Positions 4,193-23,882 of a stretch of 25,351 bases of DNA are shown here, in pieces. Position 1 is the stretch's first letter; every line of letters begins with the position of its first letter. Under the pieces are notes generated by a model. That model was not told where the DNA came from. It did not search any database and was given only the letters and a program-made list of their open reading frames with translations. The DNA comes from a virus. Both the position numbers and the translations under genes were made by a program. The stretch is from the IMG/VR virus record IMGVR_UViG_3300031224_000042, positions 1 to 25,351 of that record, one strand, 5' to 3'.

Positions 4193-4567
4193 TTATTTAT
4201 TTTTGTTATACCATTCTATAAATTCAATTACTGCTTGATAAACAGCTTTGATTTTAGATTTATCCCATTGAGAATTATCATAATCAATATTATAACCTAA
4301 AAATTCAACAATATATTGTTGTTTCATTTTACCAGCACTATAATAGTGAATATTAGAACTGCAAAATTGATTTTCTATTTTTTCAACTACAGGCATTAAC
4401 CAATCCCAAGATTTATGATATTTACTATCTGTAATATAAAAAGTAATCATTGATGAATTAGGTTCTTCTACATAACAATCTTCTATATCTTTACTATTCT
4501 TATATCTATTTTTATATAAAAACTCAGCTATTAATTTATTACCATTTAATACAAAATTCTTTTCCAT
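4193..4567 (-). CDS. Unknown phage protein, 124 aa
   Basis: A 124-residue protein containing KSWDWLMPVVEKIE near the middle and AVYQAVIEFIEWYN at the C-terminus. This pairing resembles a small hypothetical protein I associate with Bacteroidota phages; no function is known to me. All four Trp codons are TGG. The start codon lies inside the 3' end of the UDG-like gene (29-base overlap in another frame), suggesting translational coupling. No membrane segment or metal-binding cluster is seen. Confidence 0.8.
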   Translation of the reverse strand: MEKNFVLNGNKLIAEFLYKNRYKNSKDIEDCYVEEPNSSMITFYITDSKYHKSWDWLMPVVEKIENQFCSSNIHYYSAGKMKQQYIVEFLGYNIDYDNSQWDKSKIKAVYQAVIEFIEWYNKNK

Positions 4568-5243
4568 TGTTTTCTTTTATTAATTCATTAATTTGCTTAA
4601 AATGATTACAATTCCATTCTTCATTTCTTTTTGCAGCAAGTTCAGGATGTATACATTTTAAAGCATAGCAAAATTTTAATTTGTTTTCTGGAACAACTTC
4701 GTGAAAAGTTTTCATAACATCCTTTCCCCATAAACAAAATATTACACCTGGATTATTATCTATAATAGTATTAATAGTAACTTTAATAAAATTATCCCAT
4801 ATTTTTTGATGTGAGTTTACAATTCCAGCTTGAATTGTTAATGATGTGTTTAGAAGCATTACATTTTGTAAAGCCCAGTGTTTTAAAGTAACATCAAAAT
4901 TAATATCTAAACTATTATATGTTTGCTCAACCCGTTCTCTTATTTTAAATAAAGAAGGTGATATCCTAATAGTTTCATCACTATTAGCAAATGAAAAACC
5001 ATTTGCTGAAATATTAGGATTAGGAGTATTTCCTATTATCACCACTTTTACTTTATTATAAGGAACATATCTAAAAGCTCTAAATATATTTCTTTTTAAA
5101 GGAAATATAGTTTTTTTTTCATAACTTTTGTTTAAATAAATGATAAGCTCTTTAAAATAATCTGATTTAATCATATATAAAAAGCTTTCATCGTTAACCC
5201 ATTCACCAAAAGTTTTTTGAAAATTTATAATATTATTTTTCAA
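4539..5243 (-). CDS. Family-1 uracil-DNA-glycosylase-like protein lacking catalytic motifs
   Basis: At 234 aa it is close to the length of E. coli Ung (229 aa) and shows the same architecture. Near residues 67-77 it reads VVIIGNTPNPN where active enzymes have VV(I/L)GQDPYH, and NGFSFAN follows where active enzymes have HGLAFS. MLLNTSLT at 129-136 matches the L-L-L-N-T-x-L-T motif, and HPEL at 199-202 replaces the HPSPLS loop. The water-activating Asp and the stacking Tyr of motif A are gone (Thr and Asn instead), and the Ser-Pro loop is altered. It may therefore bind uracil or act as a replication accessory protein, as poxvirus D4 does, rather than excise bases. The start is TTG at 5243, overlapping the stop of the amidoligase gene; no earlier ATG gives the conserved N-terminus. 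All six Trp are TGG. Confidence 0.85.
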   Translation of the reverse strand: MKNNIINFQKTFGEWVNDESFLYMIKSDYFKELIIYLNKSYEKKTIFPLKRNIFRAFRYVPYNKVKVVIIGNTPNPNISANGFSFANSDETIRISPSLFKIRERVEQTYNSLDINFDVTLKHWALQNVMLLNTSLTIQAGIVNSHQKIWDNFIKVTINTIIDNNPGVIFCLWGKDVMKTFHEVVPENKLKFCYALKCIHPELAAKRNEEWNCNHFKQINELIKENNGKEFCIKW

Positions 5244-6747
5244 TTACTGAATCTGTAAAACTACTATAATAAGAATGTTCACTAAGACCTTTGGGATCTT
5301 TTTTGTTCATTTCTTTCATTACTTCAACTCTTTCATCAAAATATTTTTGATTACTATCACAAAGTAAATTACTAAATTCAGGAGCTTTTTTATTAAGAAG
5401 CTTTAAAAGTGAACTATATTTATTATTAAGTTTGCTAAAGGATTTTAAAAATTTAGGGTCATTAAATTTATTTTCTAACTTATTAGCAGAAACTACAATT
5501 ACAGATGACATTAACATAAAATGAAATATTTTAAAAAAATCAAAAGTATTGTTATGTTGTCTAAATTCAACAGTTTTCATATTAGTAAATATAATAGGTA
5601 TCATATTAAACCACACATACCTAGCTTTAATATTCCATTTAGAAGTACCATTAGGATCTTTAGGATGTTTATTTACATTGGCTAAATCTTCACCAAATTC
5701 GGAAAAAGTATAACCTCCTGATAAACCACTAAATAAATTATCAAAAGCAATTTGTTTAAGTTTTTTAATATCAGTATTTTTATAATCCATCATTATTTCT
5801 AATGAAGTAGTATTCATAGGACCACTATAATTTTTATTTTTATCATAATTTGTAGAAATTTCTTTATACAAAGGTTGTAAAGAATAAATATCACGTTCTA
5901 ATAAAGTTGATATATTATTAATAGCAAGAATATTATTAGGAGTTCTTTTAAGACCACCTAAATGAAGGTGTAATGAACAATTATAATCGTATTGTGTTCT
6001 TTCTTTTAACAGATTACAAATTTCCATAACATTGTATAAACCTTTTGTACCAGATAAAGGTACTGTTACATATTCTAAACCTGAAATACTACCATCTCTC
6101 AATGCTATTATTCCATGTTTATAACATAATCTATCTGGTAAATAACCTCTAGATGTTTCAAATTCAAGACCAAAAGTGATACCATTTTTTTCTAATAATA
6201 ATCCAAATTCTTCTACCATTTTATTTTTAGTGGAAGGTTTATAATAATCAGAATATGATTTTTCAATCATTTTACTAACAAATCTACTATCATAATTTAA
6301 AGTATTTTTATCTACAGGTGCTTTTCCAATTTTTTTAAAAGATGATTTTGACATCATATCTTTTTTGTAAAAAACACCAGTGTTATAATGCTCTAAGTAA
6401 TTATTATTTAATACATTTTTATTAATACATGTTTGAAAAGAAAATTTATCTAATGAAACTTTTATATTTTCAGTAACATTTGGACTAAAAAAACCTAATT
6501 CAAAAGTATCATCATCATTTATATTAATAATACCTTTTGTTAAAAGTTGTTTATTTACTAATACATAAGATTTATTTTCGTGATCATATTCAATAAGACC
6601 ATTATTAAATCTGTGATACTTATTATTTACTTTATAACATCCTCCACTATTTTTAACTTCAATATTACCTATTTCATAATATTCATTTTTAATTTTTCGA
6701 CATTTTAATTTATCGATATTTTTACCATTATAGGTTTTAACTATCAT
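5233..6747 (-). CDS. Putative amidoligase (Amidoligase_2 type), 504 aa
   Basis: A member of the COOH-NH2 ligase superfamily related to glutamine synthetase, enzymes predicted to use ATP to join an amino group to a carboxylate. The domain begins near residue 190 with ITFGLEFETSRGYLPDRL, followed by ALRDGSISGLEYVTVPL (217-231), CSLHLHLGG (257-265) and TVEFRQHNNTFDF near residue 405. These are the E-x-E, R-D-x-S, G-x-E, H-x-H and E-x-R positions typical of the family. About 185 N-terminal residues precede the domain and match nothing I know; they may bind the acceptor. The gene follows the class II amidotransferase by 13 bases and overlaps the UDG-like gene by 11, so it sits at the end of the ligase cassette. 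The substrate cannot be read from sequence. Confidence 0.85.
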   Translation of the reverse strand: MIVKTYNGKNIDKLKCRKIKNEYYEIGNIEVKNSGGCYKVNNKYHRFNNGLIEYDHENKSYVLVNKQLLTKGIININDDDTFELGFFSPNVTENIKVSLDKFSFQTCINKNVLNNNYLEHYNTGVFYKKDMMSKSSFKKIGKAPVDKNTLNYDSRFVSKMIEKSYSDYYKPSTKNKMVEEFGLLLEKNGITFGLEFETSRGYLPDRLCYKHGIIALRDGSISGLEYVTVPLSGTKGLYNVMEICNLLKERTQYDYNCSLHLHLGGLKRTPNNILAINNISTLLERDIYSLQPLYKEISTNYDKNKNYSGPMNTTSLEIMMDYKNTDIKKLKQIAFDNLFSGLSGGYTFSEFGEDLANVNKHPKDPNGTSKWNIKARYVWFNMIPIIFTNMKTVEFRQHNNTFDFFKIFHFMLMSSVIVVSANKLENKFNDPKFLKSFSKLNNKYSSLLKLLNKKAPEFSNLLCDSNQKYFDERVEVMKEMNKKDPKGLSEHSYYSSFTDSVIEK

Positions 6748-6760
6748 TTTATTATTTTTA

Positions 6761-8884
6761 TTAGTTACCAGTAGTATTAAATCGTTTTTGTTCTATAAAC
6801 ATTACTTCTTCATCATCATAATATTCATCATATTCATCAATTTCAAGATTATTATCCAAACTTAAATAATTATCTAACCATTTTTTCATAGGATTATAAA
6901 TATCTTCTAAATTTTGACAAAAATGAAATAAAGTCATTGCAACTTCATTATCATCATAATTATCATTAGATATTTCTACACCTAACTCTAATGCACTTTC
7001 TATAGTTTCTTTAAAATCCGATAATGAATATTTTAATTTATCTTTTTTATTATCATTTTCTAAAAATTCAATTTCTTCATCATCAATATTTTCATCTTTT
7101 ATTTTTTCACTAATTAAAGAATTTACATTAATTTCAAAAGTACCACTATTAGGATTTTTAATTACTACTGGTAATATAGGTTTATAAGCGTTTGTAACAT
7201 TTACTTTACCATTTTTTAAAACTTTATATTGTTTGGTACTATTCCATACTTGATTATAAAAAGAATTACTTATTATACCATCTTTTATTATATAAATGTA
7301 AGTAGAAGATATAGGTTGAATACTTTCAGATTTAACATACTTACCATTTCTTAAAATTTGATTTTTAGTAAGATTATGTTCTTTGTATAAAAGAGTATCT
7401 TTTTTATTTTTCAAATAAGATGGTTCATAATAACTAGTAATAGGATACATACTCATATGTGAAAGATCAATAACAGTATATTTATCAACACCTCTTTCTG
7501 TAATAATTTTATAATCAAGTTCTTTATTAAGTAAAATACCATCAACAATATAAAATAAATCTAAATCTGCATTATGTATAGTAACTAAAGAACTAGTTTC
7601 ACTATCTTTTATTGATAATTTCTTAAGTTTTTCTTTAGCTTCAGTAATACTTTTACTTAAGAAAACAAAACCATTATTATCAGAGTGAATATAAGCACCG
7701 TCAGCTGGAAATTTACCATTTTGTTTATATCTAAAATTTTCAAAATAAATTCTGTTATTTTTAACATTTTTTTCATTTCTAATAACTTTTTCATAAAAAA
7801 TACTTTTACATATATTAGCTTCTTCATTAGACATGTTAGAAATAACATTTTCTCTCATCTTTTCGCTTTCTGATTTATACATGATATTTTTAGATCTATT
7901 AGGTTGCTTATTAACATAAGTATCAGTTTTTCTAACAAAAATGTTTTTCTTTTTGTTATTATTTCTAGATTGAGATTTAAACTCATGCATACTAATATAC
8001 TTTTTGTTTTTAGATCTATCTATTTCATTCATACTTATTATAACACCTTTTTTAATAGTATATAAAACGTTTGATTTAAATGTAAATATGTTAGAATCTT
8101 TTTCATTGTGTTTTTTATTAGCAATAAGCTCAAGAGGTTCATAATCTGAAGAAAAATACATACTTGATTTAGAATTATTCCAGTAATGTAAAGGTCTTTC
8201 ATCTTGTATTTGAGAAGTACTATAATCAAACTTTTTAGATCTACCTCTATAAACATACATTATATCAGGATCTTTAGTAGAATGCATAACTAAAGCAGCT
8301 GCTCCTTTATATTCTTGTAAAACTTTAATATAATGAGGATTATCAGAAGTAGTTTTAGATATTATTTCTAATAATATTTCACTATCTACTTTAACTCTTC
8401 CATTATTATCTGTAAGTTTAATATCATATTTTTCAGCAAGAAAAACATGATTGTCAAGAGTACCATTATGAGCACCTATAAAATTATGATTATTTTCTAT
8501 TTCAAACATAAAAGGATGTGTATTATCTACACTTTTAATACCAGCTCTTGATGAATTTCTAGTATGACCAATTACAATTTTAGATTCTTTTTCAATTTTT
8601 AGTTTCTGATGAATCATCATATCTGTAAATAAAGCCTCGTTATTAGTTCCTATATTGTCACCCTTGTAAAGTTCTTCATTCATATATACACCACATGAAT
8701 CTTTACCTCTAGATTGGTTTAATATACCTAATATTTTAAATTTATCTATGTCAAATAATGAAGATTCAGAACCTGTCCATCCAAATATTCCACAAGAAAG
8801 TGTTTCTTTTTGTTTATTAATACTAAAAATATTTAATAACATTTGAAGTATTAAACATGTAAGTACTATATTAAATATTAACAT
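6761..8884 (-). CDS. Class II glutamine amidotransferase (Ntn) with long unknown C-terminal region, 707 aa
   Basis: The N-terminal domain is a PurF/GlmS-like glutaminase: nucleophile CGIFGW at residue 31, RGKDSCG at 59-65, GHTR at 106-109, HNG at 139-141 and DSE at 167-169. It should release ammonia from glutamine for a partner ligase. The nucleophilic Cys is not directly after Met. Translation from 8884 gives a 30-residue leader, and from the in-frame ATG at 8842 a 16-residue one, so autoprocessing as in B. subtilis PurF is likely. The leader is hydrophobic. After about residue 260 there is no synthetase domain that I recognise, only a long Lys/Asn-rich region, then DGAYIHSDNNGFVFLSK, and an acidic tail. 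It overlaps the phiEco32-type amidoligase by 14 bases, suggesting a complex with it. The four Trp are TGG. Confidence 0.88.
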   Translation of the reverse strand: MLIFNIVLTCLILQMLLNIFSINKQKETLSCGIFGWTGSESSLFDIDKFKILGILNQSRGKDSCGVYMNEELYKGDNIGTNNEALFTDMMIHQKLKIEKESKIVIGHTRNSSRAGIKSVDNTHPFMFEIENNHNFIGAHNGTLDNHVFLAEKYDIKLTDNNGRVKVDSEILLEIISKTTSDNPHYIKVLQEYKGAAALVMHSTKDPDIMYVYRGRSKKFDYSTSQIQDERPLHYWNNSKSSMYFSSDYEPLELIANKKHNEKDSNIFTFKSNVLYTIKKGVIISMNEIDRSKNKKYISMHEFKSQSRNNNKKKNIFVRKTDTYVNKQPNRSKNIMYKSESEKMRENVISNMSNEEANICKSIFYEKVIRNEKNVKNNRIYFENFRYKQNGKFPADGAYIHSDNNGFVFLSKSITEAKEKLKKLSIKDSETSSLVTIHNADLDLFYIVDGILLNKELDYKIITERGVDKYTVIDLSHMSMYPITSYYEPSYLKNKKDTLLYKEHNLTKNQILRNGKYVKSESIQPISSTYIYIIKDGIISNSFYNQVWNSTKQYKVLKNGKVNVTNAYKPILPVVIKNPNSGTFEINVNSLISEKIKDENIDDEEIEFLENDNKKDKLKYSLSDFKETIESALELGVEISNDNYDDNEVAMTLFHFCQNLEDIYNPMKKWLDNYLSLDNNLEIDEYDEYYDDEEVMFIEQKRFNTTGN

Positions 8885-9734
8885 ATTCTTTTATTTTGTA
8901 TTTTTGAATTAATTTTTTTATTTCGTATTTCTCAACAAGTATATTAATTTTATCTAAATCCAATTCTTCTTTTTCTGGATTTAAATATTTTAATATATCT
9001 TTTCTGAGATCTTCATTAGATATATCCCATTCTTCAGCCATTTTAACAGCCATTAAAGATCTATCCCATATGTTACTGATACTTTCTTCATCTTTTAAAA
9101 AATAACCTCCTAAAGATCTGCATTCAACACCATAATCTTTATCTCTAGAATCTCCAAATTTACCATATAAAGATCTTCTATTATAATAATCATTATCTTC
9201 TAAAATTAAAGGTAATGAAACTCCTAATTCAAACATCATACAAAGTCTGTCTCTCTGTTCTTCAGTTGGATTTTCCCAACCAAAATGAATATGAAAACCA
9301 GAAGATCTCATTTTTAATTTAGATGTATCTAAATCTTCCATATTAGAAGGTTTTTCAGTAATACAATTATATGATGAAGCACATCCAAATACATGAGCAG
9401 CTTTATCTTTTAAAATATCATTATTTACTTTTTCACTACTTGCATAATGAAGCTCTAAACCACGAGGTGCTATTATCAATTCAATATGCGATTTTGCATA
9501 ATTCATTGCACTAACAAACGCTTCTTTAGTTTTACAAGCTGGGATATTAAACTCAGCGAGTATATTATCTTCTTGAATAAAACAACCTTCACCAATTGAT
9601 AAAGGTTCTTCTTTTGTAGCATTGATGATACCTATTATAGATGCTAATTTTTTAGTTTTAACATCTCTAACAAAAATTTCAGGATCAGATCCAATTGTTA
9701 AATTTTTGTATTCATATTTTTTTTCTAAATTCAT
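8871..9734 (-). CDS. PhiEco32-like amidoligase (COOH-NH2 ligase type 2), 287 aa
   Basis: Recognised by LTIGSDPEIFVRD near residues 12-24, EFNIPACKTKEAFV near 61-74, the H-x-H segment SSGFHIHFGWENP around 144-156, and VECRSLGGYF around 204-213. This is the pattern of the phiEco32-type amidoligase within the glutamine-synthetase-like COOH-NH2 ligase superfamily. The role is ATP-dependent amide formation on an unknown acceptor. It starts one base after the stop of a C26 amidohydrolase gene and overlaps the class II amidotransferase. The family is known to co-occur with ATP-grasp, amidotransferase and GGCT genes, as here. The C-terminal 50 residues are a charged helical tail. Confidence 0.88.
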   Translation of the reverse strand: MNLEKKYEYKNLTIGSDPEIFVRDVKTKKLASIIGIINATKEEPLSIGEGCFIQEDNILAEFNIPACKTKEAFVSAMNYAKSHIELIIAPRGLELHYASSEKVNNDILKDKAAHVFGCASSYNCITEKPSNMEDLDTSKLKMRSSGFHIHFGWENPTEEQRDRLCMMFELGVSLPLILEDNDYYNRRSLYGKFGDSRDKDYGVECRSLGGYFLKDEESISNIWDRSLMAVKMAEEWDISNEDLRKDILKYLNPEKEELDLDKINILVEKYEIKKLIQKYKIKEYVNI

Positions 9735-9735
9735 A

Positions 9736-10383
9736 TTATAATAATTTGTCGATTAGGTTATAGCAATATTTTTTAAATTCATCAGTAGCATAATTAAATT
9801 CAGGATGACCTTGAATAGCAAGACTTTTTGTTTTATTATAATAAACAATTTCGCATTCTTTAAAATCCTTACTTAAATTAATTTCTTGATCATTACCATC
9901 AAGATATTTTTCAGAAATATTAATTTTAGAAGTTGCTATTATTTCATATTCAGATTTATCTAAATCAAAAGGATACATCATTTGATGATGAGTAGATGTA
10001 ACTTCAAAAATATTTTCTTCTTTATCTATAACATCATGACTTTGTCCGTGACCACTAACGTGTTGAATTAATCTACCATTATTCATCACAGTTAAAAATT
10101 GAGATCCTCTACAAATACCAACTTTTAAAATATGTGGTGATAAACTATTAAAAGCTTCTTGTTCTAAAGTATCTCTTTTAATATTAATAAAAGTACTTGA
10201 TCCAATACTTTCACCATAATAATCAGGATTAACATCTTCACCACCTGTAAATAAAGCAATGGTTATATCTTCTTCATTAGGATCTTCAGTTATTACAACG
10301 TCATATTTATCACTAAAAAAATCTAAATACTGTACAGTAAGATACGCATATAACGTAAATATTTTAATTTTCTCTTTTTTCAT
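9736..10383 (-). CDS. Class I glutamine amidotransferase-like hydrolase (peptidase C26/PuuD type), copy 2
   Basis: At 215 aa it carries the complete class I triad pattern: oxyanion region FTGGEDVNP at 45-53, nucleophile in GICRGSQ (Cys91), and QGHPEF with His193 and Glu195. THHQM at 131-135 matches the S-x-H-H-Q segment of PuuD-like gamma-glutamyl hydrolases. The family usually hydrolyses gamma-glutamyl amide bonds, so it may trim or recycle the product made by the ligases. It overlaps the first C26 gene by 20 bases and is followed by the phiEco32-type amidoligase. It differs substantially from copy 1, so it is not a recent duplication. Confidence 0.87.
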   Translation of the reverse strand: MKKEKIKIFTLYAYLTVQYLDFFSDKYDVVITEDPNEEDITIALFTGGEDVNPDYYGESIGSSTFINIKRDTLEQEAFNSLSPHILKVGICRGSQFLTVMNNGRLIQHVSGHGQSHDVIDKEENIFEVTSTHHQMMYPFDLDKSEYEIIATSKINISEKYLDGNDQEINLSKDFKECEIVYYNKTKSLAIQGHPEFNYATDEFKKYCYNLIDKLL

Positions 10384-11137
10384 TTTTTTGTATTCTATTT
10401 AATAATGTGTTAATAATACCAATTGCCACAAAAGGATTTTCTCTTTCTTCCGGATGAGATTGTTCAGCAGCTATAGGTAATTCTTTATGAATCATAAATT
10501 CAATATTACCATGTTTACAATCATAAGCTAATGGTAAAAAATGATCAGAAAGATTATGACTAAAAATTGCTTGATGATGAATTGAGTTAGTTTTAAATAA
10601 ACCAGGTATATTATATGTATAACTCAATTTTTCTTTTTTATTAAAAGGACTTTTTATGCCAATATAATCTTTTGGAAAATTTTCTACTACTGATTCTAAA
10701 TCATCAACAAGTTCTCCTCTAAATGTAGTTGATCTATCATTATTAACATGTTGAACTATTGTACCACCAAAGTGAACATTTAAATTCTGAAAACCTGCAC
10801 ATATACCATATATAGCAGTTAATCCTTTTTCAGCACGTTCAATATAACCATTTATAGCACCTAAATTTTTATCATAAAATGCTTCATATTCCATATCTGG
10901 AGAATCAGTCATATAATGTGGTCGTTCACCATATCTAAGTGGATTTACATCTCTACCTCCTGGTAAAATAAGAAGATCAACTGGAATAATAGATTCATTT
11001 TGAGCATCTATCATTATTACATCAGCATCAAAGCTTCTTGCAAAATGAATATAAGCTGCATTTTGACCATATCCTGGTTGATATTTACCAAAATGATTAT
11101 GAGCTAAAATTCCTACTACTGTTTTCTTTTTTGACAT
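10364..11137 (-). CDS. Class I glutamine amidotransferase-like hydrolase (peptidase C26/PuuD type), copy 1
   Basis: A 257-residue C26-type protein: LPGGRDVNPLRYG at 58-70, nucleophile elbow GICAGFQNLN (Cys113), SIHHQAIF at 185-192, and AEQSHPEE with His228 and Glu230. All triad residues are present, so hydrolase or glutaminase activity is expected. Like copy 2 it is most similar in pattern to gamma-glutamyl-GABA hydrolase (PuuD). It lies 10 bases after the 92-aa unknown gene and overlaps copy 2. Having two dissimilar C26 enzymes in one phage operon is unusual and suggests different substrates or a heterodimer. Confidence 0.87.
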   Translation of the reverse strand: MSKKKTVVGILAHNHFGKYQPGYGQNAAYIHFARSFDADVIMIDAQNESIIPVDLLILPGGRDVNPLRYGERPHYMTDSPDMEYEAFYDKNLGAINGYIERAEKGLTAIYGICAGFQNLNVHFGGTIVQHVNNDRSTTFRGELVDDLESVVENFPKDYIGIKSPFNKKEKLSYTYNIPGLFKTNSIHHQAIFSHNLSDHFLPLAYDCKHGNIEFMIHKELPIAAEQSHPEERENPFVAIGIINTLLNRIQKNEKREN

Positions 11138-11147
11138 TGTTTTTTCT

Positions 11148-11426
11148 TTATTTATTTTTAATATTAAATTTTCTTTTGTAATTATCTATAGCTTTAACTA
11201 TATAATTATCATTACTTAATTCTTTTCCATTTTCTTCTAAGTAAACTCTATCTTCACCAAAACTATAAATATTAGTTGTTGGTTTTATTCTAACAACTTC
11301 TTGTTTATAACCAAATAATCTTTCTATAAAATTAGGTCTTAAAGTAACTAAATAAATACCAGTTTCATAAAAAGATGTACTTTCTAAATTATCACCAATT
11401 TCTTTTATAATTTTAAATACTTTCAT
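11148..11426 (-). CDS. Unknown small protein inside the amidoligase cassette, 92 aa
   Basis: A 92-residue protein with a basic C-terminus (NYKRKFNIKNK). No domain is recognised. A mid-region of alternating hydrophobic residues (TGIYLVTLR, RVYLEENG) suggests a small beta-rich fold. The start codon lies within the 3' end of the ATP-grasp gene (14-base overlap in another frame), so it is translated with the cassette. It has no Trp and no Cys. It could be a carrier or acceptor peptide for the ligases, but this rests on position only. Confidence 0.7.
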   Translation of the reverse strand: MKVFKIIKEIGDNLESTSFYETGIYLVTLRPNFIERLFGYKQEVVRIKPTTNIYSFGEDRVYLEENGKELSNDNYIVKAIDNYKRKFNIKNK

Positions 11427-12300
11427 TATATTTATTTTTTAACATTACTGGTATATGCTCTATATATTTTTGTTCAGTAACTTCACCAAAACTTGGTGCT
11501 GAATTTATCTCTACTATAATAAATTCTGGTTCTTGTCTTTTATTACCATCTCTATCTGTAGAATTTTGTATTCTAAGATCAATAGCACCAAAATCAAGAC
11601 CAACAGCTTTTAAAGCTTTTACTGATTCATTAACAACATTATCCCAATTAGTAGGTTTATCAAATGCTTCATTATTTTCTAATATCCACACACAATTATC
11701 ATCGTTTCTATACCATTTGTTTTCATTAGGAGTATCTTTTTTCATCATTTTACGACAAGTATAAAAACAACCATTAGCATCAACATGTAGTCTGTATTCT
11801 CTTGAATAGTTATAATAACGTTCAAAAATACGATTACTTAAATCAACACCAGATCTTAGATAACTTGTAATTTCTTCTGTTGTGTTAAGTAAAGTATTAC
11901 CTTGACCTCTACTACCATATAATGATTTAGCAACTAATGGTAGTGGCATATCTTCTAAACGCACTCTTATTATTTCAGCTTTTGTTTGCAATAAAAACAT
12001 ATTATTGTCATTACTAGATCTATACCAGTCTGCTGATTTAACACTTGGTTCTGCGTTTTGAAAACAATTTTTCATACGAAGTTTACTACTACTATTACGA
12101 ACAGCTTCAATTGTATTAAGTTCTATTCTATTACCACCATTGGTAACAGTGTCTTCTTTATCAGTAGTAGAACCTAATCTTACTACTGATTTAAAGGGAA
12201 CTAATTCAATTTTAGCATTTTTTCTTCTTAAATTTGTATGAGAAGGATGCCTACTAAATATTACTGGTCTAAATTTAGTATATTTTTTTTTATTTTTCAT
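11413..12300 (-). CDS. ATP-grasp ligase, 295 aa
   Basis: The central and C-terminal parts show an ATP-grasp fold. PLVAKSLYGSRGQGN near 121-135 is the Lys plus Gly-rich loop binding ATP. REYRLHVD near 167-174 leads to the second ATP-binding strand. DFGAIDLRIQN near 235-245 and EFIIVEINSAPSFGE near 258-272 carry the metal-binding Glu and Asn (E-x-N). Such enzymes activate carboxylates as acyl-phosphates and join them to amines, as in RimK and peptide ligases. Its position between GGCT and the C26 genes, with overlapping reading frames, makes it the first of three predicted amide-forming enzymes in the operon. The N-terminal 100 residues are basic and lack a recognisable preATP-grasp motif. Four Trp, all TGG. 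Confidence 0.88.
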   Translation of the reverse strand: MKNKKKYTKFRPVIFSRHPSHTNLRRKNAKIELVPFKSVVRLGSTTDKEDTVTNGGNRIELNTIEAVRNSSSKLRMKNCFQNAEPSVKSADWYRSSNDNNMFLLQTKAEIIRVRLEDMPLPLVAKSLYGSRGQGNTLLNTTEEITSYLRSGVDLSNRIFERYYNYSREYRLHVDANGCFYTCRKMMKKDTPNENKWYRNDDNCVWILENNEAFDKPTNWDNVVNESVKALKAVGLDFGAIDLRIQNSTDRDGNKRQEPEFIIVEINSAPSFGEVTEQKYIEHIPVMLKNKYNESI

Positions 12301-12748
12301 TAATATATTTTTTATAAGCTTTGTTAATATTTTCTAAATTTGCAAATTCATGTTTAAAACCTTTTTCTTTCATTCTACTTTCAGTATTCCAAGGTTTATA
12401 ATCTAATTTCATTAAAAAAGGATATTTTTTATCTTTTTCATATCTTGGTATTGTAAAAACCAAAGCTTTAATATCAGGACAGTAAAATAATCTTGTTTTA
12501 TCTTCAAAAATTATTGTTTTAAAAACTATTTTTAAGTATTTATTCCATGTAATTGATTTATATTCAGTTTTTAATATATTATATATATCGTATATAGATC
12601 TATTTCTATTTCTACAACACTGAAGATTAGTAAAATTTTTATTAATATAACTAGTAGGTCTAACATTAATTAAATCAAGTAACATTAATTTAATTGAATT
12701 TCTTCTTCTTAAAGCTGTATATAATTTTTTATCTTTTATAATCTGCAT
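12290..12748 (-). CDS. Unknown basic protein inside the amidoligase cassette, 152 aa
   Basis: A Lys/Arg/Asn-rich protein. I chose ATG 12748 (MQIIKDKK) over an in-frame GTG two codons upstream at 12754. It overlaps the GGCT 3' end and runs 11 bases into the ATP-grasp gene. Features seen: a basic N-terminus with RRRNSIKLMLLDLINVRP, a Cys-Cys pair near residue 45 (LQCCRNRNRS), and KYPFLMKLDYKPWNTESRM near residue 112. No known domain is recognised. Given its charge it may bind nucleic acid, but there is no motif to prove it. Confidence 0.7.
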   Translation of the reverse strand: MQIIKDKKLYTALRRRNSIKLMLLDLINVRPTSYINKNFTNLQCCRNRNRSIYDIYNILKTEYKSITWNKYLKIVFKTIIFEDKTRLFYCPDIKALVFTIPRYEKDKKYPFLMKLDYKPWNTESRMKEKGFKHEFANLENINKAYKKYINEK

Positions 12749-13118
12749 AATCACCTGATTTAATTAAGGTTTGAGCACTTTTATTGCAGAAATACAAAGA
12801 AGCTTTAACTTTTTCATTATTATCCAAAGTGATGTCAATAGGTGATCTTTTATACCATGATCCATCATGGTCATTTGGGTTATAACCTTCAAGTCTATCA
12901 ACAGAAGGTATTTGTTCTGGTGTTACAGAATAAACTTCTACTCTGACGTTACTTGTTGGTTTTTCTTTGTTTACAAATGGAATACCATTTGCTGTAAGTT
13001 CGTACTTTTCTTTGGTCCAACCAGAACCAATTAGTTTGGAATTACCTAAAACACCGTGGTTGTGAAAACCAGTTCTAAGAGTTCCATATACTGCTACATT
13101 CATATTTTTTTTATTCAT
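12729..13118 (-). CDS. Gamma-glutamylcyclotransferase-like (GGCT/AIG2) protein
   Basis: At up to 129 aa it has the family signature VAVYGTLRTGFHNHGVL (residues 8-24) forming the substrate loop, and SVDRLEGYNP (72-81), where Glu77 is the expected general acid/base. Members convert gamma-glutamyl amines or peptides to 5-oxoproline plus free amine. It is the first gene of the ligase cassette in transcription order, overlapping the primase stop by 8 bases. An in-frame ATG five codons downstream (13103), with a very A-rich leader, matches the usual M-x-V-x-V-Y-G-T-L-R start and may be the true one. GGCT genes commonly accompany amidoligase operons, where the enzyme may process the gamma-linked product. 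Confidence 0.88.
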   Translation of the reverse strand: MNKKNMNVAVYGTLRTGFHNHGVLGNSKLIGSGWTKEKYELTANGIPFVNKEKPTSNVRVEVYSVTPEQIPSVDRLEGYNPNDHDGSWYKRSPIDITLDNNEKVKASLYFCNKSAQTLIKSGDYADYKR

Positions 13119-14151
13119 CTTTTTTGTTTATTTTTGAATTTAATAATTCTTTTGCAAAATTCTTTCCATGGTTTGCAACTAAATCAGAGAAATCTTTAGA
13201 TTTATATTCTTTTTCTATTAGTAAATTCTTGATCATGTAATCTCGGGATATTTCTTTCCCATTAATCTGTCCCCAGTTTTCTGATTTATCATAATCATTA
13301 TCAAATAATATAAAAACTCTATCAAACCTAACTTTTAATTCTTCTATTACTACATCTTTAGGATTAGCTTTTTCATTTTGTAAAGCTATTGCATTAAATC
13401 CAGTTGTAGCTTTTATTGACATAACATCCTTTAAAGATTTTGTTATAATTAAAACATCACCTCTGTTTGGAAGTTGTTGCCAACCTTGCCATACTGAATT
13501 ATCATTATCAGTTATCCATTTAAATTTACTAAATGGCTGATAAATTTTATGCGTAATCTTTCTATCCTTTGTTTCTATATATACATATGCATGTTTGTCA
13601 GCTGCAATAGGTCTTTTATTTAAGAATATATATCTTAAAGGAAAAACTCTGTATTTTATTAACATAGGTTTAGATATATTAAAAGAATTCCAATATTCTA
13701 AATCATGTGTCTGCCATTCCCTTTTAGTAACACCAATGTCACACTTAGCTTTTTTTTGTATTTGAATATTTTTGTCATATTTAATATTAGATTTAGTTTT
13801 ATCACTTGTAATATTTCTACTACAAATATATTTACTATCTAAATTAAAATCAACAGCAATTTGACTATATACGTCAAACCATTGTGAATAACCAAAAAGT
13901 TCTTTTACAAATTTATAGCAATCCCCACCACCAGTTACAAAATCATTATAAATGATTTTACTTTTTTTATTCAAAAAGAAACCAAAAGAAGGTGTTGGAT
14001 CATCTCTAAGAGGTGAACTCATTGCCGTGTTTAGTTTAAGATCAGATGTATTCATATAAAATGAATATATTTGACTATCAGTCAATTCTTGATCTAATAC
14101 TTTACTATTTATTAAAGGTTTAGGAACATGATTATTTAAATCTATATTCAT
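13111..14151 (-). CDS. DNA primase, TOPRIM type, 346 aa
   Basis: The N-terminal region SSPLRDDPTPSFGFFLN (about 45-61), followed by IIYNDFVTGGGDCYKFVKELFG, looks like a primase DNA-binding module with the zinc-ligand cysteines replaced. The TOPRIM core is VLIITKSLKDVMSIKA (about 233-248) and DRVFILFDNDYDKSENWG (about 278-295), supplying the D-x-D metal site. The usual TOPRIM Glu (E-G in most primases) appears as Lys-Ser here, a form I associate with this phage primase group. It should make RNA primers with the helicase encoded at 18137-19270. It begins downstream of a strong terminator that follows the SSB gene, so its transcription depends on readthrough or on a promoter in the short gap. 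Seven Trp, all TGG. Confidence 0.85.
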   Translation of the reverse strand: MNIDLNNHVPKPLINSKVLDQELTDSQIYSFYMNTSDLKLNTAMSSPLRDDPTPSFGFFLNKKSKIIYNDFVTGGGDCYKFVKELFGYSQWFDVYSQIAVDFNLDSKYICSRNITSDKTKSNIKYDKNIQIQKKAKCDIGVTKREWQTHDLEYWNSFNISKPMLIKYRVFPLRYIFLNKRPIAADKHAYVYIETKDRKITHKIYQPFSKFKWITDNDNSVWQGWQQLPNRGDVLIITKSLKDVMSIKATTGFNAIALQNEKANPKDVVIEELKVRFDRVFILFDNDYDKSENWGQINGKEISRDYMIKNLLIEKEYKSKDFSDLVANHGKNFAKELLNSKINKKDE

Positions 14152-15605: not shown

Positions 15606-16175
15606 TTATTTAGAAATCATAAATTTTTTACATGATAACCATTTTTTATTAATTAATTTATTTTTGTGTTTAGGTATTATATTAGGATAAATATTAGAAT
15701 GATCTCCGTACATAGAATTTCTATTATTTAATTTAATAACACTATTTTTCAAACATTCCATTAAAAAATATAAACTCTCTTGTCTTTTTAAATTTTTCAT
15801 TATAGATTTATAAAATTTCTTGTTATTAAAACCTGAAGGTTTATGCCACAATGTTCTTATAAAATTTAACAAAACTAAATTTGTTTTATAACAACAGTTT
15901 TGAGAAAGATTCTGATTAAATATCTTATATTTAATTAAATTTTTATTATTAATATTTACTAATTTACATTCAGTTATATTATTAATTAAATTAACTAATC
16001 TTTTTAAATATTTAGTTTTAATTATACTTTTATGATCAATATAAATATAATCTTTATAAATATAATTTTTTATATCTGACCAACAAGCAGAAGAACATTT
16101 ATATAACCCACTGTTATTTATAATATAATAATGACATGAAAAATCATTAAATTCTTTATCTTTTTTAATTATCAT
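15606..16175 (-). CDS. Unknown Asn/Lys-rich protein, 189 aa
   Basis: A strongly basic 189-residue protein rich in Asn, Lys, Ile and Tyr, with scattered cysteines (SSACWSD, NCCYKT) that form no clear zinc motif. A segment LLNFIRTLWHKPSGFNNKKF near 102-121 may be a helix-turn unit. The start ATG overlaps the last codons of thymidylate synthase by 11 bases. No homologous family is recognised. Composition is more AT-biased than the neighbouring ATPase, suggesting a fast-evolving lineage-specific gene. Three Trp, all TGG. Confidence 0.7.
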   Translation of the reverse strand: MIIKKDKEFNDFSCHYYIINNSGLYKCSSACWSDIKNYIYKDYIYIDHKSIIKTKYLKRLVNLINNITECKLVNINNKNLIKYKIFNQNLSQNCCYKTNLVLLNFIRTLWHKPSGFNNKKFYKSIMKNLKRQESLYFLMECLKNSVIKLNNRNSMYGDHSNIYPNIIPKHKNKLINKKWLSCKKFMISK

Positions 16176-17031
16176 AAGCTAACATTTTTGCTTTAATTGC
16201 TGGATAAGATTTATAATTATCTAATTGAAAATTATCAATATTTAAATTATCTAAACAAGTATTAATTTTATTATGCTCTAAATTATTTAATCCTAATGAA
16301 CTAATATTTAATTCACATTTACCATGTTTATTAAGATCTCTAGACAACTGTTCTTTAACAGCATCCAAGTGATTTTCATAGATATGTACATTGCTAAGAT
16401 CACCTATAATAGCTTTCGGAACCATATTGGTCATCTTACCTATTATGTGTGCTAAAGTGGCGTAAGAAGCTATGTTAAATGGTAAACCTAAAAATGTGTC
16501 CACTGAACGTTGATGCCATTTTAAAGTAAATTTATATCTAGGTACATTTTTATTAGGATTTGGATTTTGAAAATTCATATCGCTAAAGGATACACCTTCA
16601 TACAATTTCATTAATATTTCAGTTTTAGATAAAGGCTCAACTAATATTTCAAAACTCCAATGACAAGGAGGTAAAGCCATATCATCTAACTCTGCAGGAT
16701 TCCAAGCAGTAACTATGTGTTTTGTACCCATAGGTGTTTCTTTTAATCCTTTTATAAGATTAGATATTTGATCTTTAAACCAAGTTACTCCAAAATTATC
16801 TTTACATTGCCAATCTCTCCATTGAGCACCATATACTCTACCTAAATCACCTAACACATAATTATCAAAATTATATCCAGTTTCATTGTTTTTTATAGCT
16901 TCAATAAAATCTTTTAAAGTTAGATTTTTTAACTCATACCATTCACCACTTAATTGTGATTTAAAATAATTATAAGCATCTTTATTCCAAATGTTTATAC
17001 CATTATCTACAAGATATTTAATATTAGTATC
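16165..17031 (-). CDS. thyA: Thymidylate synthase (ThyA-type), exon 2
   Basis: The C-terminal 288 codons of a split thymidylate synthase, joined after splicing to 17462-17674 for a 359-aa protein. Motifs: DTNIKYLVDNGINIW at the start, GDLGRVYGAQWRDW, the catalytic Cys in LPPCHWSFE, WHQRSVDTFLGLPFNIASYA (phosphate-binding Arg, Ser and Asp; the Asn selecting dUMP) and VHIYENH. The C-terminus is PAIKAKMLAYDN where most enzymes end near PAI. It is about 95 residues longer than E. coli ThyA, mainly through an insertion after PPCHWSFEILVEPL and a longer C-terminal part. The second Trp of the usual IWDEW motif is absent (IWNKDAY), so a dUMP hydroxymethylase is a less likely alternative. The ATG at 17034 is intronic sequence, not the native start. 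All Trp are TGG. Confidence 0.92.
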   Translation of the reverse strand, partial: DTNIKYLVDNGINIWNKDAYNYFKSQLSGEWYELKNLTLKDFIEAIKNNETGYNFDNYVLGDLGRVYGAQWRDWQCKDNFGVTWFKDQISNLIKGLKETPMGTKHIVTAWNPAELDDMALPPCHWSFEILVEPLSKTEILMKLYEGVSFSDMNFQNPNPNKNVPRYKFTLKWHQRSVDTFLGLPFNIASYATLAHIIGKMTNMVPKAIIGDLSNVHIYENHLDAVKEQLSRDLNKHGKCELNISSLGLNNLEHNKINTCLDNLNIDNFQLDNYKSYPAIKAKMLAYDN

Positions 17032-17461
17032 CATTTATATTCTATAAACAACGCAACTTGTTTATACGTTTAATTAACAATCATCACAATCATCATCATC
17101 ATCATCATTAATAGCACAATCTCCCATAAGTATAAACATTAATGATATTGCTATAATTCCTATACTTCCAATTGTTAATACTATTATTTTATAAGTTGTC
17201 ATGTTTTTTATTTTTAATTAATTAAACTGCTATACATTACTGTATAGATTAGACTATATCTTAACCTGTTCTAGGTTTCTGCCGTTTCCACAATCATAAG
17301 CTTATTGTGTACGCTCTTTTATGAGCTAGTCGTTGCACATTTATTTATAATTTTGTAATGATTTAAATTATAAAATTTAGTACAGGATTGTCCTATTAAT
17401 AGGAGATTCCCTGTTTAGACAGATTACGGTTAAGTATCCCTACTTAACTAGGCAATAATTC
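17032..17461 (-). ncRNA. Group I intron (td-like, subgroup IA) in thymidylate synthase gene
   Basis: About 430 nt between exons coding ...WFLRG and DTN.... Joining GGT (17464-17462) to GAT (17031-17029) restores FLRGDTN. The exon ends in U and the intron ends in G, the group I rule. GGU pairs with GCC at 17453-17451, giving the U-G wobble (P1), and UAUU next to it can pair with exon GAUA (P10). An eight-pair hairpin GTTAAGTA/TACTTAAC follows (P2). Core boxes: AATCTGTCTAAACAGGGAAT near 17426-17407, GACAATCCTGTACTAAAT, GTGCAACGACTAG at 17338-17326, and AAGATATAGTC at 17262-17252. Later stems are AACCT/AGGTT (P8), CTATAC/GTATAG (P9), and a nine-pair stem at 17043-17066. From memory the core closely resembles the T4 td intron, but the insertion site differs: T4's lies near GELG-PIYG, which is uninterrupted here. 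Confidence 0.92.
17074..17202 (-). CDS. 42-codon ORF inside the intron: possible small membrane protein
   Basis: ATG at 17202, stop TAA at 17074, lying in the peripheral 3' part of the intron after the P9-like stem. It predicts a short N-terminus, a hydrophobic segment of about 20 residues (IIVLTIGSIGIIAISLMFIL), then GDCAIN, a run of six Asp, and CDDC. The preceding AAAAATAAAAAAC resembles other leaders in this genome. It occupies a place where related introns carry homing endonuclease genes, but has no GIY-YIG, HNH or LAGLIDADG motif. The GAT-repeat tail could be slippage-prone. It may be a moron gene or chance; there is no homology evidence. Confidence 0.45.
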   Translation of the reverse strand: MTTYKIIVLTIGSIGIIAISLMFILMGDCAINDDDDDDCDDC

Positions 17462-17674
17462 ACCACGTAAAAACCATAATAATTCCCCAACAATTCCTTT
17501 CCAAAATAGTTTTTTAGTAGTCATTGCGGGAAAACCATCTGTAAAATTGTGTACCAGCGTGTAAGTTGGTATCTGATACCTAAATACACCTTTGCGATTA
17601 GGATCTTCATATTTAAATCTTTCATTTTTAATTTTTTGTAATAGTTTATGATATTCAACATCTATTTTTGCCAT
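17462..17674 (-). CDS. thyA: Thymidylate synthase (ThyA-type), exon 1
   Basis: The first 71 codons of the split gene. It contains [20 protein letters not shown], replacing the usual D-R-T-G-T-G-T segment, then [26 protein letters not shown], the conserved FP-x-x-T-T-K-K and ELLWFL-x-G motifs. Without splicing, translation would read five more codons (ELLPS) into the intron and stop at TAG/TAA. The gene starts six bases after the 130-aa unknown gene. Because FLRG is followed immediately by intron rather than DTN, the exon alone cannot form an active enzyme. Confidence 0.92.
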
Positions 17675-21944: not shown

Positions 21945-23882
21945 TTAATTTTTTATTACGTTAATAATTTTGTTTATTTCTCTTAAATAATAGTCATAAT
22001 TAATATTATAATTATCACTATCATAATATTTATTGAAAACTGTGCTATCATAACCAGCTTCTATACTTGATTCTCTATCACCCATATCAACTTCATTAAA
22101 GATATTAATTTGCATAGTAGGTGTTTTATCAGGTAATGGTGGTAATTTTTTAACAAGCATATTACCATCATTAGAAATATAATATCTTGTTACCTTACCT
22201 AACTTGTGATCTTCTGGTTGATAGTCTTTTACAATTCTTCTTACAAGCTTGTTTTGACCTGTCATTTTAACGGCTAAACAAAAGTCGTGTATTCCATAGT
22301 TTTTACAAAACTCATAATCAGATTTTACTATATCACTTTTAAACTTAGTTAAATGATTATATAATGTAAATTCAGGATCTACATTGTTTATAAAGTAGTT
22401 AGCTAAAGCAATAGGTACAATCCTTTTACTGTGATTCTTATTATAGTCCCTATCCATTTCAAAACAACCTTTATACTTAATATAACCAGTGTCTGTAACA
22501 CTCATATAATTATTAACATCACGTATAATCATTTTATCATAAATAGCATACTCCATAACAAGTTCAGTTTTCTTTTCCCATGCAGTTACTATCTTCTTCA
22601 TATATTCTACTTTATCTCTATCAATAAGAAAAGTAAAACCATCTGTATTAGATTGAAGAAATTCAATATCACTAACGTTACTGTTTATCTTTTCCATTAA
22701 CATTGCTAGTAATAACTGACCGTTAAGAGTTATGCTTAATAAACACTTAGGATCATATAAAAAACTATAAACATCATTCATCTTACCAAATGCACCATTG
22801 AGCATTAACTTACATGCAGCATTACGAGGATCTGATTTTGGAAATGTTTTCCTGAGCTCGTAAATACTTTTATAAATTTTACTAAATGCATCTCCTAAAT
22901 GTTGTGGTCTAAAACCATTGTTAATAGCTAAATTAGGATAATAACTTGCAACGTCAATATCTATAATAACTTTTTTGCTATCACTTTCATAAATACCAGA
23001 TTTAGTACAACCGTGAATACCACCTTGACCAAAGTCATTATATATATTACCAATTTTACCAGTAAACTTAAAGTCTCCCTTTGTATCTATTGCTCTATAG
23101 CTTTTAAATCCATCAAGAACGCTATTCATTTCAGGTGTTTCAAACTTAATATAATCAAGTATTATTTCACTAAAATCAATTCTTTTTCTGTAAGTACGCT
23201 TTTCTTTAAGTTCCTTTTTATCAATATTCATTTCCTTAGATAATAAATCTAAAAAGATCTCACTACCAATCTTAGGATCATTAGCATTAGTAAGATTTAA
23301 TCCATATTGTTTTGATAACTGCAACCTAAGCTCTATATCCTTTTCACAAAGCTTATAAAATAGATGTGTAGCATTAACATCATGATCACAATAAGATATT
23401 ATCTCATCCATCATTTCTCTTGTTAAAGAGTCTCCTGGTGGATAAGGTAAATCACGAATATCATTCATTCTCATAGCATATTCAAGCCATTTAAGAGATG
23501 TTCTACGTGCCTTGTTATCATAGTGCTTAATCCTAAATAAATCTATCTGAGGTATCTTTGTTTCACTATCCCATATAGCTGAATACTCTGCTTCAATGAT
23601 ATTTTGAGCTTCATAATATATATCTTCTGATGTTCATCTACGTTTACGTCTAAGTATTGTATTGTGTAATACAGGATAATCAAAGTTAACATTGTTATAA
23701 CCTATTAAAGTTATATTTCTTTGTTCAAGAAATTCATACAGTTTTTTAATTTCTGTTTTATATTTACTTATTTCAAATCTTCAAAATTCATTTGTATCAA
23801 TACATTTAAAAGTAGCAAGAAATAAATCTTTATATGTTTCTAAATCATATATGTAAGTTTTATTATTTCATTTTTTTTCCAT
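21945..23882 (-). CDS. Family B DNA polymerase with 3'-5' exonuclease, three in-frame TGA codons
   Basis: 645 residues when TGA at 23868-23870, 23781-23783 and 23634-23636 are Trp (residues 5, 34, 83). Exonuclease motifs are YDLET (Asp13, Glu15), GYNNVNFDYP (61-70) and YCDHD (164-168). Polymerase motif A is IDIDVASYYP near 308-317, motif B KLMLNGAFGK near 358-367, and motif C QSNTDGF near 410-416, the last with Asn-Thr-Asp where many enzymes have Asp-Thr-Asp. KYKGCFEMDR is the K-x-(Y/G) segment. It is compact and shaped like the phi29-like and crAss-like family B polymerases. Under the standard code the gene would begin at 23474 and lose exo I and II. The 3' end of the preceding gene overlaps its start by 20 bases. 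Confidence 0.93.

Follow-up and report, generated by a model that had tools for sequence, protein, structure and literature searches.

A known phage amidoligase cassette in a crAss-like virus fragment encodes a glutaminase with a hydrophobic, apparently cleavable N-terminus

What is made by a cluster of nine genes, seven of them coding for enzymes, that lies amid the DNA replication genes of a phage, and on which molecule does it act? The question is raised by the virus record IMGVR_UViG_3300031224_000042 (25,351 bases; the whole stretch analysed is referred to as the window), a fragment of a crAss-like virus near Cellulophaga phage phi14:2. Nine open reading frames (ORFs), all on the minus strand, fill positions 5233-13118, and neighbours overlap or almost touch, as a preliminary description of this DNA had reported; these ORFs are real. 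The gene set is almost certainly the known phage amidoligase cassette, carried here by a crAss-like phage. The cassette itself is thus not new, and crAss-like examples with the same annotations are present in phi14:2 and cr108_1. What is new here is the hydrophobic N-terminus of its glutaminase, which, judging from the sequence, is apparently cleavable. Families were assigned from the Pfam and PHROG matches of the window proteins, and the cassette reads as follows in the direction of transcription.

12729..13118, minus strand: GGCT, gamma-glutamylamine cyclotransferase-like protein (AIG2/YtfP family), 129 aa; PF06094 E 1.4e-20, phrog_2520
12290..12754, minus strand: U154, basic protein; no Pfam or PHROG match
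11413..12300, minus strand: RimK-like ATP-grasp amino-acid ligase, 295 aa; phrog_2599 E 1.6e-35, no Pfam match
11148..11426, minus strand: U92, small protein; no match in the nearest relatives
10364..11137, minus strand: C26a, Peptidase_C26 / class I glutamine amidotransferase, 257 aa; PF07722 E 1.7e-19
9736..10383, minus strand: C26b, Peptidase_C26 / class I glutamine amidotransferase, 215 aa; PF07722 E 1.3e-11, phrog_7218 E 4.8e-35
8871..9734, minus strand: phiEco32-type COOH-NH2 ligase, 287 aa; PF14395 E 9.8e-7, phrog_3815 E 1.2e-58
6761..8884, minus strand: class II glutamine amidotransferase (glutaminase, GAT-II), 707 aa, with a hydrophobic N-terminal extension; PF13522 E 4.4e-9, phrog_4736 E 1.7e-18
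8795..8884, minus strand: the glutaminase extension, 30 residues MLIFNIVLTCLILQMLLNIFSINKQKETLS, abutting the nucleophile Cys31; delimited by alignment with the related loci L003 and L005 and with phi14:2
5233..6747, minus strand: Amidoligase_2, 504 aa, with an extra N-terminal domain of about 180 residues; PF12224 E 1.5e-6, phrog_2443 E 6.8e-53

Seven of these proteins have clear Pfam or PHROG family matches, and the enzymes named in the preliminary description are correctly assigned; the basic protein given there as 152 aa is 154 aa long. It had also been envisaged that catalytic residues might be missing in most of the enzymes. When the window copies were aligned with 11 to 15 relatives, all seven were found to keep theirs. 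The COOH-NH2 ligase has the invariant G/D/E, HxH, RR..YGK and YGxExR elements, and Amidoligase_2 has GxExE, DGS, HxH and EFR. The ATP-grasp ligase retains K73, E168, R170, H172, K184, D241, E264 and N266. Both C26 proteins have a Cys-His-Glu triad (nucleophile in GICAG and His/Glu in SHPEE for C26a; GICRG and GHPE for C26b). In GGCT, E77 of LEGY is invariant across 11 relatives, and the glutaminase motifs CGIFGW, GHTR, HNGT and VDSE are all visible.

A sequence search found no solved relative of either amidoligase. The AlphaFold2 model of the COOH-NH2 ligase (pLDDT 92.5, pTM 0.90) has a fold of the glutamine synthetase / gamma-glutamylcysteine ligase type, its top Foldseek matches being glutamate-cysteine ligase (2gwc, E 2e-6), YbdK, glutamine synthetase and GmaS (gamma-glutamylmethylamide synthetase). 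Amidoligase_2 was modelled with a pLDDT of 94.1. The ATP-grasp profile matches RimK alpha-L-glutamate ligases and cyanophycin synthetase, the alpha-L-glutamate ligases being nearest. The nearest solved structures to C26a are Lin1909 (3fij) and the probable glutamine amidotransferases 7d4r, 7d50 and 7d53; the solved relatives of GGCT are YtfP, YkqA and AIG2-like proteins.

The COOH-NH2 ligase of the window has tblastn matches in 316 of 50,697 phage records (305 for the phiEco32-like ligase and 308 for the PaP3 amidoligase), and its relatives are encoded in at least 537 viral-contig stretches. Gene neighbourhoods reaching 6 kb to either side were compared in 55 non-redundant viral loci; these were chosen through the COOH-NH2 ligase, best window matches first, and all counts are therefore conditional on that gene. 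GAT-II and Amidoligase_2 both lie on the same strand as the COOH-NH2 ligase in 54/55 loci, forming a three-enzyme core; the ATP-grasp ligase is present in 49, C26 in 45 and GGCT in 34, and all six families in 27. Thus the co-occurrence that the preliminary description proposed to survey in other phages does exist, and its recurrence in phi14:2, cr108_1 and unrelated phages, together with the core, shows that the gene set is not due to chance. The cassette had also been called unusually complete; this does not hold, since at least two C26 proteins are found in 17/55 loci and some loci even have two GGCT genes. Fusions between cassette enzymes, sought as a clue to partners, were not found. Three loci (L078, L082, L084) are exceptions to the conserved core, with C26 and the COOH-NH2 ligase (GGCT in two of the three); glutaminase and Amidoligase_2 were not found in the stretch examined. 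In five others, on contigs of 155-353 kb (L024, L037, L054, L065, L085), the stretch examined holds only C26, COOH-NH2 ligase, GAT-II and Amidoligase_2. In nine loci (L025, L043, L067, L068, L071, L072, L076, L087, L088) Amidoligase_2 is followed by a second class II glutaminase, a small one that begins MC(L/I/V)I.

The named hosts recorded for the full cassette are Gram-negative. The E. coli phage KarlSchell (Bas89) has GGCT, ATP-grasp ligase, glutaminase, amidoligase and COOH-NH2 ligase, and SkaterBoy (Bas90) also carries cassette genes, detected through its ligase. The collection to which both phages belong was isolated on an E. coli K-12 strain whose O-antigen had been restored (PMC11990801), so that a laboratory model exists. 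Homologues in host genomes are limited to 9 loci, all in metagenome bins, so that there is no cellular model.

Two gene layouts recur across very different phage groups. The first, crAss-like and that of the window, is GGCT-ATP-grasp-C26-COOH-NH2-GAT-II-amidoligase-UDG (UDG, uracil-DNA glycosylase); the second, found in podoviruses, is COOH-NH2 ligase, phrog_4877, Amidoligase_2, GAT-II, ATP-grasp, GGCT. The phrog_4877 family (PaP3), of about 200 aa with a conserved R..KGL and YKG..VG pattern, stands directly before Amidoligase_2 in podovirus cassettes (e.g. L008:6773-7396, L009:8799-9398, L010:8819-9424 and L012:5577-6194). Profile comparison was negative both for phrog_4877 as a divergent C26 and for its presence, as a fused domain, in the amidoligase or the glutaminase of crAss-like phages.

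The same gene set is named peptidoglycan modification cassette in the literature (PMC5498523; PMC11945000), where Hardies 2013 and Iyer 2009 are reported to have proposed peptidoglycan modification; modification of peptidoglycan peptides by the cassette is thus a literature prediction. The preliminary description was right to connect these genes with the amidoligase clusters that Aravind and colleagues described in phages. In the account given by PMC5498523, the cassette of Iyer 2009, of RIO-1 (Hardies 2013) and of PSA-HP1 shares with the window GGCT, ATP-grasp ligase, COOH-NH2 ligase, Amidoligase_2, class II glutaminase and class I amidotransferase, as well as a location in the replication region. 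The window cassette too lies amid DNA replication genes, and the set is common to RIO-1, phiEco32-like and LUZ24-like phages. The window differs from RIO-1 and PSA-HP1 by its crAss-like gene order, the lack of a phrog_4877 gene, the hydrophobic N-terminus of the glutaminase and its two C26 proteins. In phi14:2 (g037-g041) the order is the same, with primase before and UDG after, whereas no C26 was detected and neither U92 nor U154 is part of the cassette; the ligase is about 49% and the ATP-grasp 54% identical. The Leptolyngbya phage Lbo-JY46 has all the enzyme types of the window, C26 included (three matches), but unrelated neighbours (PncB, PrsA), a glutaminase starting MCGI and an extended ATP-grasp. 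The full cassette of this cyanophage spans L011 4270-17028, and one of its three C26-like proteins has a degenerate active site. The idea of a glutaminase and a ligase amidating the peptidoglycan stem peptide is familiar from MurT-GatD, which amidates lipid II in Staphylococcus aureus; there, however, the ligase, MurT, is one of the Mur ligases, and the glutaminase, GatD, belongs to class I (PMC3267633). No Mur-ligase family appears among the Pfam and PHROG matches of the window cassette proteins. A limited literature search found nothing joining crAss-like phages with amidoligase.

Class II glutaminases act through an N-terminal Cys. Most phage glutaminases analysed here begin MCG, with the Cys as residue 2, while that of the window has its Cys at residue 31, after MLIFNIVLTCLILQMLLNIFSINKQKETLS. 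The preliminary description had recognised the enzyme class and overlooked this extension. The alignment shows the window-type N-terminus also in the glutaminases of L003, L005 and phi14:2. In all, 22 loci (the window and 21 others) have such an extension, i.e. a hydrophobic membrane-helix-like stretch and a basic linker, with 24-43 residues before the catalytic Cys; this anchored type represents 22/73 non-redundant glutaminases. Hydrophobic N-termini are found in 21/83 glutaminase ORFs, against 7/837 other ORFs (≥200 aa) and 0/355 other cassette ORFs. The start of the alignment had hinted at one in the glutaminase of Vibrio phage 1.208.B; the annotated protein begins MCGI. No earlier description of such a class II amidotransferase, or of such an apparently cleavable hydrophobic N-terminus, was found in a limited literature search.

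In none of the 22 anchored loci does a start codon (ATG, GTG or TTG) precede the Cys, which could thus become N-terminal only via cleavage. At most two basic residues, mostly none, are present among the first six residues, and one to four follow the helix. This charge pattern suggests that the N-terminus is outside and the enzyme inside. The extension, with no start codon next to the Cys, implies a tethered pro-enzyme whose catalytic domain would be cytoplasmic. Alternatively, the N-terminus could be a classical signal or lipoprotein peptide exporting the enzyme, or the product of a mis-called start. At position -1 to the Cys, about half of the 22 loci have Ser or Gly, which fits lipoprotein processing there, but the rest have Asn, Tyr, Val or Phe. 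Half of the -1 residues thus misfit signal peptidase rules, which makes export less likely, and basic residues placed mostly after the helix are the reverse of an export signal. As to a mis-called start, the lack of any ATG, GTG or TTG before the Cys speaks against it. We consider export or a mis-called start distinctly improbable. A membrane-anchored pro-enzyme in many crAss-like phages, facing the cytoplasm, cleaving itself before the Cys and supplying ammonia at the inner membrane for lipid-linked wall precursors, is possible, and still rather doubtful.

How might the whole cassette work? The membrane-like segment and the proposals of Hardies 2013 and Iyer 2009 lead us to favour a membrane-linked envelope precursor, most likely peptidoglycan, which the cassette would amidate or conjugate with gamma-glutamyl groups; we hold this reading tentatively, at a little short of an even chance, and a cell-wall target is leading but unproven. 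While the phage replicates, its class II glutaminase would free ammonia from glutamine. The two amidoligases, of predicted (for Amidoligase_2, putative) glutamine synthetase-like fold, and the RimK-like ATP-grasp ligase would receive this ammonia by channelling, or use amino acids, and so amidate carboxylates of the precursor and extend them; the precursor would most likely be a stem peptide, in UDP-linked or lipid-linked peptidoglycan. The C26 proteins and GGCT may trim or edit gamma-glutamyl amides, or add more ammonia. In the branch of the window, the glutaminase would have an N-terminal membrane segment with its N-terminus out and its catalytic domain in the cytoplasm; a cut before Cys31 would free the N-terminal Cys and make the enzyme active at the membrane, beside the lipid-linked precursor. 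The phage might benefit by excluding other phages (superinfection exclusion) or by altering the wall for its own lysis.

Several observations weigh against this proposal. The extension was detected by hydropathy only. It is labile: on the tree of catalytic domains 12 changes are required, of which well-supported branches force at least 10, and close relatives such as L022 and L028 differ in it. With ten or more gains or losses of the extension, membrane attachment cannot be essential for the pathway, and the extension is missing from other glutaminases that have the same partners. In the clade of the window, selection acts no more strongly on the extension than on the enzyme domain. The top Foldseek matches of Amidoligase_2, all glutathione synthetase, glutamate-cysteine ligase or glutamine synthetase, are weak (best E 1.1e-3). 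The Arthrobacter phage Shrooms has amidoligase and glutaminase only. Arthrobacter hosts have another type of wall, so that no single wall chemistry need be the substrate. Finally, no experiment on any such cassette was found in the literature searched.

The two small proteins U92 and U154 had been put forward as candidate acceptors or carriers. Neither L003 nor L005 has a homologue of U92, and in L003 the flanking genes leave no space for one (ATP-grasp end at 8571, C26 start at 8574). Members of the U154 family are scattered in crAss-like replication modules (L003, L005, L019, L022, L031, L040, L041 and, twice, L046). Neither is a conserved part of the cassette, which makes them poor acceptor candidates, and from their sequences neither looks like a dedicated carrier.

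This bears on the tagging of a host or phage protein, in which the ATP-grasp ligase and the amidoligases would add glutamate or other amino acids, as RimK does on ribosomal protein S6, with C26 and GGCT as erasers. The proximity of the ATP-grasp ligase to ribosomal S6/alpha-L-glutamate ligases fits such a role, small ORFs adjoin the ATP-grasp gene in podovirus cassettes, and PMC4431377 refers to Iyer 2009 for peptide modification of proteins and gives the proposal that host proteins are modified by R2K-type phage ATP-grasps. However, the cassette has no conserved acceptor gene, the search run did not find the small podovirus ORFs in crAss-like cassettes, and a hydrophobic N-terminus on the glutaminase is unexpected for a soluble target; we regard protein tagging as unlikely. 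We give equally little credence to a small-molecule product, i.e. a gamma-glutamyl amide, polyamine or glutathione-like metabolite that would block host defence or serve nitrogen metabolism. The COOH-NH2 ligase fold does resemble glutamate-cysteine ligase and gamma-glutamylmethylamide synthetase, but three ligases and two hydrolase families seem excessive for one simple amide, and the cassette is linked to neither a transporter nor a dedicated target gene. Help with nitrogen use was proposed for a Planctomycetes phage that has similar genes, a claim based on growth tests with whole phage (PMC10945688).

The Gordonclarkvirinae, cassette carriers among them, resist restriction-modification for unexplained reasons and have no known modification pathway (PMC11990801), which would suit either such a metabolite or a DNA-base conjugate, i.e. 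amino acids or ammonia joined to a modified base of the phage DNA. The latter, also raised in the preliminary description, could draw on the position of the cassette in a replication operon beside primase, thymidylate synthase and uracil-DNA glycosylase. Yet restriction enzymes cut the DNA of cassette phages: 11/16 enzymes cut that of the LUZ24-like phage U17 (PMC11945000), and RsaI, HpaI, EcoRV, SmaI and HaeIII cut that of phage tf (PMC3517423). Moreover, none of the gene clusters listed has a known base-modifying gene in linkage with the cassette. A base conjugate is thus disfavoured, and we consider it very improbable, the least likely product of all.

The closest annotated relative of the window is phi14:2 (Crassvirales; Steigviridae; Asinivirinae), with identical gene order and a DNA match that is short only (94%). 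The cassette is flanked by two genes.

13111..14151, minus strand: DNA primase, upstream neighbour; phrog_12622 E 6.3e-68
4539..5243, minus strand: uracil-DNA glycosylase, overlapping the last amidoligase gene; PF03167, same neighbour in phi14:2 and cr108_1

The operon runs on past the cassette into the uracil-DNA glycosylase gene, i.e. the replication operon continues. Sak4, thymidylate synthase, a DnaB-like helicase (label borrowed from its phi14:2 counterpart), DNA polymerase and ribonucleotide reductase are also encoded nearby. The thymidylate synthase gene (16165-17674, minus strand) is split: GELLWFLRG closes part one and DTNIKYL opens part two after a gap of about 400 bases, while the L003 and phi14:2 genes are unbroken. 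The insert (about 17034-17440) has no clear ORF, and the Rfam scan made no call; it contains AAGATATAGTC, which we take to resemble a group I intron core element. In the DNA polymerase ORF (21945-23474) the phrog_1252 match begins at profile position 183, about 180 N-terminal residues being elsewhere or missing; in the phi14:2 annotation this gene is a join of two pieces.

The cassette, a prediction of 2009, is carried by hundreds of phage records and by abundant crAss-like phages. The extra membrane-like segment of the glutaminase hints that the set acts on cell-envelope precursors. The hydrophobic N-terminus of the glutaminase is the first hint here of a cellular site, and makes the cell-wall idea testable through cleavage, membrane location and wall precursors.

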